DNA of 35,442 nucleotides from Candidatus Nomurabacteria bacterium GW2011_GWA1_36_15 (GTDB taxonomy: Bacteria; Patescibacteriota; Minisyncoccia; Phycocordibacterales; UBA9973). Shown here one piece after another: positions 18,415-24,435 of the stretch. The notes under the pieces were generated by a model. That model was not told the origin of the DNA, made no database searches, and saw only the letters and a program-made list of their open reading frames with translations. Within the stretch, counting starts at the first letter, position 1; each line of letters opens with the position of its first letter. Position numbers and translations under genes: made by a program. The stretch is taken from the NCBI GenBank assembly GCA_000991415.1, contig LBRM01000011.1:38385-73826 (forward strand). The letters run 5' to 3'.

Positions 18415-21400
18415 ATGTATAATCTTTTTACAAATTACATTCAATCCATCTCGACCAAGTTTTCGCATAGAGAAACAAGCGAAATGGGTTATCGGACAGA
18501 TTTTGAAATCCTACTGAAAGGTATTTTTGAATCAATTAATGTCAAGAGAATTGATCATGACGCAAAAGCCATACAGGGAAACAAGCCCGACTTCGTTGTG
18601 CTTAAAAATGATGTGCCTATTCTCTATGTTGAAGCAAAAGACATAGGAGTTTCTTTGGATAAAGTTGAGACTTTGGTTATACAAATTTAGTTCTTACAGA
18701 TTATGTAGAATTTCGTTTCTATAGAAACGGTCTTCGTTATGATGAGCCAATAAAAATAGCAAATTATGATATAAAAGATAGAACAATTACGCCTATTTCG
18801 AAAAATTATGAACATGTCACAAAAACACTTTTGGATTTTACGCAATCACAAAAAGAACCTATACGCTCTGGCAAGCATCTTTCAAAAATTATGGGAGGAA
18901 GAGCACAGAGAATTAGAGATAATGTACGACAATTTCTCGTTACCCAATCGGATAAAAATGCCGAGTTAGTTCGCTTGTATGAAACGTTTAAAAAACTTTT
19001 AGTTCATGATCTCACGACGGACGCATTTGCCGATATGTATGCACAGACGCTTGTTTATGGTTTATTTGTTGCTCGCTATAATGATGAGACAAAAAAAGAT
19101 TTTTCACGACAAGAAGCACGAGATTTGATACCTAAATCAAATCCACTTCTTCAACACTTTTTTGATCATATAACAGGACTAAATTTTGATAAACGACTTG
19201 AATATATTGTTAATGAATTGTGTGAAATTTTTTCTCATGCTGATGTCCAAGAACTAATGAAAGAATATTTTAAGGATGATTTGTGGGGTAAAACTCAAAA
19301 AGGTCCTGACCCGGTTATTCACTTTTATGAAGATTTTTTGAAAGAATATGATCCTAATTTACGCAAAAAAATGGGTGCTTATTATACTCCACTACCTGTG
19401 GTGCAGTTTATTGTGCGTTCTGTTGACCACTTGCTGGAAAAAGAATTTGGACTTGTTGCTGGATTGGCCGATACTTCAAAGACAACCGACGGTATCCATA
19501 AAGTTCAAATTCTTGACCCAGCTGTAGGAACAGGAACATTTATAAGTGACATAATAAGAAAAATCTACACAAGGATACTGAAAAATAAACAGGAGGGTCG
19601 TTGGCTGGCATATGTGCATAATGATTTACTTCCACGCTTACATGGTTTTGAGCTTATGATGACGCCATATACCATAGCCCATTTAAAGTTAGGAATGGCT
19701 TTTAGAAAAACAGGATTTAAGTATTTCAATCAGCGTCTTGGTATTTATCTTACAAATTCTCTTGAAGAAGGTATTACCCAAGAGGGAATGTTTACAGGAT
19801 TTGGTTTCGCTGAAAGTATCGCCGAGGAATCTAAAGAAGCGTCGGTTATAAAAAATAAAACACCAATTATGGTTGTCATCGGCAATCCACCATATAGCAT
19901 TAGTTCTTCTAATAAAGGTGAGTGGATTCAGAATCTTATTAAAGATTATAAAAATGGTCTTGGCGAGAGAAAGATTAATCTTGATGATGATTACATTAAA
20001 TTTATTCGTTTTGCTGAGCATTTTATAGAGAAAAATAAAACTGGTATTGTAGCAATGATTACTAATAACTCCTTTATTGATGGTATTACACATCGTCAGA
20101 TGAGGAAGCATTTACTTGAAACATTTGATGACATTTATATTCTTGATTTACACGGCAACTCAAAGAAAAAAGAAAAAGCACTTGACGGAGGAAAAGACGA
20201 AAATGTTTTTGATATTCAACAAGGTGTTTCAATAAATATCTTTATTCGTAAAACCAAGGATAAAAAAAATCTTGGTACTGTCTATCATTCAGAACTTTTT
20301 GGAAAGCGTGAAATAAAATTTGAAACGCTCAATGATTCTGATCTAGATAAAATAAAATGGCAAAAACTTGATTATTCTGAGCCATATTATTTTTTTGTAC
20401 CGAAAGATTTTGGTGCAAATGAAGAATACGAGAAAGGGTTTTCTATTAATGACATATTTACGGAATATAATTCCGGTATACAAACAAAAAGAGATGATCT
20501 TGCAATTTCTTTTACAAAAAATGAACAGGAGCAGAAAGTTAAAGATGTTCTCAATTTAGAAGAAGGGGAATTAAAAAATAAATATAACTTACCAGAAGAT
20601 GGTAGGGATTGGAAAATGAAATGGGCAAAAAATGATTTAACAAAAAGTTATATTATTTCTAATATTTTATACAGACCACTCGACACACGATTTACTGCTT
20701 ATACTCCAAGATCAAAAGGGTTGATTGCTTATCCAAGAGAAAAAATAAATAAATACATTGTTAATAAAGATAATATAACCCTATTAACAAGTAGGTCTAT
20801 TCCAGCAAATAGTAATTTTGACCGAGTTTTTATTACGAAAGATATATCTGATATTCATGCATCAAGCGATCAAACATACATATTCCCACTTTATTTATAT
20901 ATAGAAGATGAAACAAAAATTCCAAATCTTAAAAAAGAAATAGTTCTAGAAATAGAAAAGATCATTGGTAAGATTACACCAGAAGATATTATGAATTATA
21001 TTTATGCGACACTACACTCTCCAAATTATAGAGAAAAATACAAAGAATTTTTAAAAATAGATTTCCCAAGAGTTCCATATCCAACAAATAAAAAACAATT
21101 TGATTCTCTGGTTACACTGGGTCGGGAGTTACGAGAAATTCATTTACTTGAATCTTCAAAGGTTAGCCAATTTATTACAACGTATCCTATTGTCGGCTCT
21201 GGTACAGTCGAGAAAATTTCGTACAAAGACGGCAAAGTATATATTAATACTGAGCAGTATTTTGGTAATGTCCCAGAAATTGCTTGGAACTTTTATATCG
21301 GGGGTTACCAACCTGCTCAAAAATGGCTCAAGGATCGCAAAGATCATACACTTTCAAATTCTGACATTGAACACTATCAAAAAATCATTGTGGCTTTGGT

Positions 21401-21443
21401 GGAAACAGAGCGAATTATGAAAGAAATTAATAAAATCTTATAA
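18415..21443 (+). pseudogene. Type ISP/IIG-like restriction endonuclease-methyltransferase, frameshifted
   Basis: Two frames together make one protein of about 1000 residues. The first frame (18415-18690) holds the N-terminal nuclease: KPDFVVLKNDVPILYVEAKD with Asp59, Glu73, Lys75. It should continue into the family's usual SEQ...RYFGY segment. Instead the sequence jumps, and another frame resumes from about 18672 with FGYTNLVLTDYVEFRFYRNG, staying open to TAA at 21443. A small deletion not divisible by 3 near 18670 (some 20 bp by comparison with the family pattern I recall) explains this. The second part has the N6-adenine methyltransferase motifs DPAVGTGTF (near 19514) and NPPYS (near 19883), then a target-recognition region. 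The family helicase block is absent, so this is the shorter nuclease-methyltransferase architecture. As it stands the enzyme cannot be complete; a methylase-only product from an internal start is possible. Confidence 0.85.
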
Positions 21444-23324: not shown

Positions 23325-23353
23325 TTGATATGTTTACTAAGTAAAACTAAATA
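23325..23353 (+). promoter_or_regulatory. Promoter TTGATA-N17-TAAATA for the structured leader
   Basis: -35-like TTGATA at 23325-23330 and -10-like TAAATA at 23348-23353, spacing 17 bp. Transcription would start near 23360, giving a leader of about 165 nt before the nuclease ATG at 23524. Confidence 0.45.
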
Positions 23354-23383
23354 TGAATGACCTAAACTAGATTTATTTAGCAT

Positions 23384-23514
23384 GGTCTAAAGACCCTTAG
23401 AAGATACTGAACCCCGCGTTCAGCAACTCTTCTAAGGGCTGTATCAGGAAACTGATATGGGGTCGCAAGACCTAGCTGGCACGGGGTTTAGTGTTTTAAC
23501 TAGCCTCACGCCAG
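23384..23514 (+). ncRNA. Highly structured leader RNA, candidate riboswitch or ribozyme-like element
   Basis: P1: CCCTTAGAAGA (23394-23404) pairs perfectly over 11 bp with 23428-23438. Inside P1, P2: CTGAAC/GTTCAG (23407-23412/23418-23423). Then P3: TATCAG-GAAA-CTGATA (23442-23457), closed by a GNRA tetraloop, and P4: GGTC-GCAA-GACC (23461-23472), again a GNRA tetraloop. The P2 loop (CCCG, 23413-23416) can pair with CGGG (23482-23485) as a pseudoknot, extendable to 7 bp. CTGGC (23476-23480) pairs with GCCAG (23510-23514), which overlaps the AGGA ribosome-binding site of the next gene. An alternative hairpin (23485-23505) competes with the pseudoknot, a two-state layout typical of riboswitches. 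I cannot match it to a family I know. Confidence 0.7.
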
Positions 23515-23523
23515 GAAAACCCT

Positions 23524-24435
23524 ATGGCGTTATTTTTCACCCAAAACGAAATAGTAAAAAAAATTCCGACTGTTAAAATCGGTCTGGAAAAGAATATTCA
23601 GAAAATCTTCGAGAAAAATCTCGACGAAATATTGGATATTACATTTCTAGCAACTGAATACTCAACAAGCCTCGGTGGCAGAATGGATACCGTAGGAATT
23701 GATAACAACGGCTCTCCAGTGATTATTGAATATAAACTTTCTCAGAATGGCAGTGTGATCAATCAAGGATTATCTTATTTACTTTGGCTTCTAGATCATA
23801 AGGATGCTTTTGAGACGTTAGTACGAAAAATGAATATTAATATAGAAATTGATTGGGCATCGCCACGCGTAATCTGCGTTGCGGAGAGTTATAACAAATT
23901 CGATTTGGATACCGCCGATCTTTTGCCAATGAATATTGAACTGCTTCGCTACCGTCTTTATGAAAATAATATTCTGGTTGTAGAATCAGAAACACAGCGT
24001 AAAGTAAAAATTTCTACATCTGATATTTTTGGGAGAAACGAAAAACAAAAAAATGAGTTCAAAGAAAAAATACAACACACTTTAGACGACCATCTCAAAT
24101 CCACAAATAATAATATCAAGGAACTATTTGCAATACTAAAAGAAAATATCTCCGCTCTCGATGAGCTTATTATTGAAGAACCGAAATCAAAATATATAGC
24201 ATATAAACTTACTACCAACTTCTGTGATGTGGTGATACTAAAAGATTCACTCAAGATTTTTCTCAATATTCCAAGTGGTAATTTGAATGACCCCTCAGTC
24301 ATGGCTCGTGACCTTACTAAGCCCCAACCAATCGGTCATTGGGGCAATGGAGACTATGAGGTGAAATTAGAGAAAAAGGAGGATATAGAAAAAGTAATGG
24401 ATTTAATCAAACAGAGCTACATATACAACAAATAG
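23524..24435 (+). CDS. PD-(D/E)XK nuclease-like protein with C-terminal DUF5655-like domain
   Basis: A 303-residue protein. The N-terminal half carries a nuclease core: GGRMDTVGIDNNGSPVIIEYKLSQ with Asp55, Glu69 and Lys71, and a preceding conserved ILDITFLATEYSTS. It resembles NucS/DUF91-like and other housekeeping or defence nucleases that cut DNA. The C-terminal third (SKYIAYKLTTNFCDVVILKDSLKIFLNIP...DPSVMARDLTKPQPIGHWGNGDYEVKL) matches the DUF5655-type module often called a predicted transport protein. AGGA sits 7 nt before the ATG and can be hidden by the upstream RNA structure, so expression may be controlled by that leader. It lies alone between two terminators. Confidence 0.82.
   Translation: MALFFTQNEIVKKIPTVKIGLEKNIQKIFEKNLDEILDITFLATEYSTSLGGRMDTVGIDNNGSPVIIEYKLSQNGSVINQGLSYLLWLLDHKDAFETLVRKMNINIEIDWASPRVICVAESYNKFDLDTADLLPMNIELLRYRLYENNILVVESETQRKVKISTSDIFGRNEKQKNEFKEKIQHTLDDHLKSTNNNIKELFAILKENISALDELIIEEPKSKYIAYKLTTNFCDVVILKDSLKIFLNIPSGNLNDPSVMARDLTKPQPIGHWGNGDYEVKLEKKEDIEKVMDLIKQSYIYNK

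Follow-up and report, generated by a model that had tools for sequence, protein, structure and literature searches.

The window (the whole 35,442-nt stretch analysed, from contig LBRM01000011.1 of Candidatus Nomurabacteria bacterium GW2011_GWA1_36_15) carries a gene for a nuclease-like protein with a structured RNA directly ahead of it. The protein matches the PADLOC family PDC-S18 along its full length (HMM match 1.7e-90, residues 2-299) and has a C-terminal DUF5655 domain; by sequence, no homologue of known structure was found for it. A Type ISP restriction-modification gene (18831-21443; N6_Mtase and Type_ISP_C) lies ~2 kb upstream of the unit formed by RNA and nuclease gene, and a gene for a trypsin-like protease follows downstream. 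The features of the unit are as follows.

23343..23358, + strand: predicted transcript 5' end, AAAACTAAATA, the local counterpart of a conserved ACAAYTnAATA box
23359..23387, + strand: helix P1 (GACC/GGTC) of LOOT RNA, with the conserved CCUAAAC ... GCAUGG and an inner hairpin, from the Rfam alignment
23394..23404, + strand: 5' strand of helix P2 (x), CCCTTAGAAGA
23403..23424, + strand: P2 loop with a mini-hairpin (23407-23412/23418-23423); doubles as the 5' strand of helix PT
23428..23438, + strand: 3' strand of P2 (x'), TCTTCTAAGGG
23439..23460, + strand: hairpin P3, GAAA tetraloop
23461..23472, + strand: hairpin P4, GCAA tetraloop
23475..23495, + strand: 3' strand of PT, beyond the Rfam model; partner 23403-23424, -30.9 kcal/mol
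23476..23514, + strand: alternative hairpin z:z', incompatible with PT (predicted fold of state A)
23508..23530, + strand: start-site hairpin ACGCCAGG..CCUAUGGCGU around AGGA (23513-23516) and AUG (23524) (predicted fold of state B)
23524..24435, + strand: nuclease-like protein, PDC-S18, C-terminal DUF5655

The RNA belongs to a family that has already been catalogued. An Rfam 15 scan matched 23359-23473 (+) to LOOT RNA (Rfam RF03000) at 78.6 bits, against a gathering cut-off of 46.4, and the match spans the complete model (positions 1-121). In the Rfam alignment the window copy has the conserved P1 nucleotides and the GNRA-capped P3 and P4. Other than LOOT, no family in that scan scored above cut-off in this stretch; T-box, cobalamin, c-di-GMP, HDV-like, twister and group I intron each fell below their gathering cut-offs and were excluded. 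An earlier reading of the same DNA (the sequence-only reading) had taken the element for undescribed and fitting no known family, and had proposed an Rfam scan as its own check; the LOOT match overturns that claim. It had also placed the element at 23384-23514, where the structures are real; the start lies ~25 nt earlier, and helix P1 had been overlooked. Its other structural calls fared better. The perfect 11-bp stem around a second hairpin is P2 (23394-23404 / 23428-23438) with its mini-hairpin, and the hairpins capped by GAAA and GCAA are P3 and P4. The density of helices, judged unlikely by chance, is borne out by folding energy: the region folds at -56.2 kcal/mol, compared with -34.7 +/- 3.7 in dinucleotide shuffles (z = -5.8), and 0 of 200 shuffles were as good.

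LOOT is a metagenome-derived family according to Rfam 14 (PMC7779021). It has been given as an example of unusual cross-covariations (PMC7657543), and R-scape has added two base pairs to it (PMC11701678). The Rfam type is 'Gene; sRNA', and the model stops at P4. The analysis here adds a transcribed 5' box, the helix PT 3' of the model, a position as a leader, and copies of a P2 strand at the start site (x2). The leader role, PT and x2 are absent from the Rfam description, and no function for LOOT was found in the literature searched, whose coverage ended short of the original description (Weinberg et al. 2017).

For comparison, 161 LOOT copies were oriented and collected with their flanks. A same-strand ORF lies next to LOOT in 155 of the 161, and its ATG stands a median of 56 nt past the Rfam model (quartiles 49-64). 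Immediately 5' of the model is the conserved ACAAYTnAATA box, and ahead of the box are a TTG -35 motif and a TG-extended TATAAT (TGnTATAAT-like) -10 motif. Because these motifs are at promoter spacing, the transcript should start at the box, just 5' of LOOT, throughout the family. In the window the box carries one mismatch to ACAAYTnAATA, and no match to the promoter consensus was found at this site. Judged from these alignments, LOOT as the 5' leader of the downstream mRNA is supported. Shine-Dalgarno-like motifs precede 14 of 132 LOOT-led genes and 20 of 191 genes of the CPR background, so that their absence was dropped as a LOOT speciality.

The Rfam type would suit a different reading, which we regard as quite unlikely: LOOT could be a separate sRNA, perhaps processed from the leader, that works in trans or, by way of x', on its own mRNA, in the manner of the c4 antisense RNA of phage P1. 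The fixed spacing of 49-64 nt to a same-strand ORF speaks against this, as does the rarity of linker terminators, which were found in 3 of 160 copies.

A helix beyond the Rfam model ties LOOT to the sequence that follows it. The P2 loop is complementary to the tail 3' of P4 in all classes of copies. The RNAduplex energy of loop and own tail is -26.7 +/- 4.3 (n=157); it is -14.3 when the tail comes from a locus whose loop is dissimilar and -12.2 when the tail is shuffled. The sequence-only reading had suggested covariation in homologous leaders as a check, and the loop-tail helix, PT, does covary when 148 distinct copies are aligned. About 17-20 tail-loop pairs covary strongly, and ~17 column pairs exceed the shuffle maximum. 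Columns 100-193, for example, are paired in 147 of the 148 copies, mainly as CG (48), AT (35), GC (31), TG (19) and TA (8), against a shuffle maximum of 77. An A.C mismatch at columns 96-197, conserved in most copies, splits PT into a G+C-rich PTa of ~11 bp and an A/U PTb, which covaries too (columns 90-203 and 92-201). Window PT has 14 contiguous bp and ~6 more. It had been described earlier as a loop pseudoknot of 4-7 bp; the pairing exists, and its length was underestimated. PT in the window is continuous, without the A.C mismatch seen in most copies.

How PT relates to P2 is the crux of the structure. PTa alone could form with P2 closed. Since PTa and PTb together leave almost no linker across the helix, the full PT should need P2 open, and on this geometry two states should be expected. 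The P2 loops self-fold too (-5.5, compared with -1.6 when shuffled; 97% of copies). In state A, P2 (x:x') would be closed and the mini-hairpin formed. In state B, the tail past P4 would invade the whole P2 loop to form a PT of ~18-20 bp. This should open P2 and release x'. Pairings in competition with one of these strands could then let the start region sense the state.

A leader that does not switch has to be weighed here. LOOT might bind a protein or stabilise the mRNA, with P2 and PTa forming a compact pseudoknot that has an A-rich linker, and with x2 helping to dock the start region. The A.C mismatch sets off just that part of PT which could coexist with P2, and the diversity of the downstream genes (below) fits a general stability or translation element. 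We nevertheless consider such a static leader unlikely. A single fold with closed P2 has no need of the covariation in PTb, and the pairing of x2 needs x' to be free. LOOT is also apparently no substitute for a Shine-Dalgarno sequence, given the equal motif counts in LOOT-led and background genes.

One sign that the start region takes part is a repeat of a P2 strand. At least 8 nt of the P2 5' strand (x) recur beside the ATG in 40 of 147 loci, where mismatched locus pairs give an expectation of ~0.4; about 107 of the 147 copies are without this repeat, x2. Of the 43 loci in which the repeat is 7 nt or longer, 34 have it ending 1-5 nt ahead of the ATG. Controls gave no excess in antisense or at -80..-40. 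Pairing of x' with the start region goes beyond the 0.1% threshold of swapped pairs in 18 of 140 loci (0.14 expected). x2 occurs at six out of seven DNA methyltransferase genes that are homologous to one another, with x words that differ in nearly every case. Because homologous genes keep matched strands in this way, x, x' and x2 have changed together, and x' can pair with either x or x2.

These repeats bear on two other explanations. One is that x2 is a by-product of recombination, in which cores were copied between genes along with a functionless duplicated strand. Near-identical cores do stand before unrelated genes (L053/L058, L021/L122, L016/L025), but the spacing of 1-5 nt to the ATG is held across many x words, and the homologous methyltransferase genes have different yet matched x and x2. 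We find this explanation very improbable. The other is the separate sRNA, for which x' is antisense to the start region at 40 loci and the x words differ among paralogues of one genome, as avoidance of cross-talk would predict. Yet the 11-bp stem locks x', and PT covers the leader to near the start site.

Near-identical cores were found before unrelated genes in a fourth pair as well (L115/L124), and LOOT leaders seem to be re-used between genes. In all four pairs the near-identity runs from x to the tail, with x2, and does not extend to P1 or the linker. A recombination boundary lying cleanly between P1 and the core was suspected, but P1 varies even between leaders of homologous genes (L062/L129).

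We favour a switching leader, in which the start region could read the state in up to three ways. In about a quarter of the copies, x2 lies 1-5 nt before the AUG and could be covered by freed x'. Other copies, including that of the window, would use a hairpin between the tail and a downstream strand, z', which would otherwise join a start-site hairpin. These tail-z' hairpins are modestly stronger with their own strands (-13.6) than when swapped (-10.9); 10 loci pass the 1% threshold, compared with 1.35 expected. A few copies would use an intrinsic terminator in place of the tail-z' hairpin. At L020 and L081, state A pairs the 5' arm of the terminator and state B leaves it free; with terminators in so few copies, terminator control was rejected as a general mechanism. 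A fourth platform, in which the 5' strand of PTb recurs (CGCAAAAA before ATG), was tried and dropped for want of a clear excess over swapped controls (own -5.6, swapped -5.3).

In the window, x2 amounts to merely 5 nt (ACCCT before ATG), with no clear start-site repeat. State A (P2 and hairpin 23476-23514) folds at -68.0 kcal/mol and state B (PT) at -66.5 kcal/mol; on average, state A is favoured by 6.9 kcal/mol, with pseudoknot terms excluded. State B frees 23508-23515 for pairing around the AUG (with 23521-23530), and the start-site hairpin 23508-23530 is available once z' is free. State B is thus predicted to release this hairpin. It can occlude the AGGA at 23513-23516, in keeping with the terminal pairing over the ribosome-binding site claimed earlier, and hairpin 23476-23514 corresponds to the alternative hairpin that had been placed at 23485-23505 as excluding the pseudoknot. 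A comparable hairpin at the start codon (GCCAUG..CAUGGC) is kept in the orthologous leaders L019 and L035, where it is present in both states. The start region of the window is equally open in both computed states (mean openness of -12..+6, 0.42 in A and 0.41 in B), so that simple folding predicts no switching of its start codon.

On this evidence we think it probable that LOOT acts in cis as the leader of the nuclease mRNA, that it adopts two or more folds which exclude one another, and that the start region reads which of them is formed. The two states suspected by the sequence-only reading from exclusive pairings agree with the loop-tail covariation, the gene context and the P2-strand copies at start sites. 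A cis-acting switch is likely, and switching between the states in the cell would then control translation. The trigger might be a metabolite, a protein or something else.

The genes behind LOOT are varied. The 150 proteins encoded downstream represent 102 Pfam families and include 7 N6/N4 DNA methyltransferases, 5 staphylococcal-nuclease-like proteins and 4 HtrA/trypsin-like proteins. Homology among the downstream genes gave 22 groups, all small. The methyltransferases look over-represented (7 of 150, compared with roughly 90 matches in 41 relatives if ~700 genes per genome are assumed). A functionally coherent set pointing to a ligand was not found among the 150 proteins, and because the LOOT-led genes are so diverse, no ligand is suggested. 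We know of no ligand for LOOT. Of the riboswitch for the nuclease proposed earlier, the cis-acting structured leader stands; a ligand-binding riboswitch is possible. The proposed defence role for the nuclease holds in so far as PDC-S18 is a PADLOC candidate-defence family, and by this assignment the protein is a candidate for defence and no more.

Besides the copy before the nuclease, this genome has LOOT ahead of a DNA methyltransferase (L038, with x2) and ahead of a protein whose start resembles a signal peptide (L006). LOOT also accompanies another nuclease family, one near PDC-S11, at L091, L134 and virus contig L292. LOOT as a fixed partner of PDC-S18 was rejected, as none was found in the retrieved sequence around members L308, L311, L310 and L313, where the upstream part is short in some. 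At L099, LOOT lies 26 nt from an opposite-strand reverse-transcriptase-like gene (PADLOC RT/DRT-like).

Of 100 related genomes, 45 contain LOOT, with 3 copies in the window's own genome and up to 7 in a single one; so do 64 of 287 sampled across the phylum. None of 14 well-known control genomes had it. A pattern scan of 84,980 named species (one genome each) placed it in Yanofsky-, Uhr-, Doudna-, Staskawicz-, Nomura-, Ames-, Levy-, Woese- and Zambryskibacteria and similar groups. The covariance model rejects the three pattern matches in named groups beyond Patescibacteria (Fournierella, an Acidobacteria MAG and Rhizobium), and LOOT was found only in Patescibacteria. Among virus contigs, 3 of 80 scored pattern matches carry LOOT above cut-off (L292, L299 and L300, from IMG/VR). 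In L292 it precedes the PDC-S11-like nuclease, and x2 abuts the ATG. In L299 and L300 it precedes a terminator and then a protein that by eye resembles a phage portal protein; their downstream gene is the same as in Doudnabacteria L114. Several LOOT-like elements lie within 3 kb on Uhrbacteria contig L186 (889-3900), and L105 has two LOOTs, each ahead of a paralogous small gene.

With translational riboswitches and their three-strand platforms, LOOT shares the leader position, a conserved sensor-like fold and an anti-start strand (x', with x or x2). Unlike them, it precedes genes that share no pathway, and the sequence of its exchanged strand can vary freely. The c4 antisense RNA of phage P1 is also a structured RNA just upstream in the same transcript, with a strand antisense to the downstream start region. 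LOOT is likened to it by arrangement; x' of LOOT is held in P2, which competes with PT.

More broadly, LOOT may form a Patescibacteria-wide class of switch leaders with rewritable x, x' and often x2, in which PT decides the partner of x' and all members respond to one common signal. We hold this tentatively, as a proposal that is plausible and still short of an even chance. If it is true, the same LOOT core would be re-used before DNA methyltransferases, nucleases, secreted proteases and small membrane proteins. Through this comparison LOOT can be tested as a cis-acting leader in the Candidate Phyla Radiation, whose members are hardly cultivable and whose gene regulation is almost unknown. If LOOT switches, its signal would bear on the control of restriction-modification, nuclease and envelope genes in these reduced cells.
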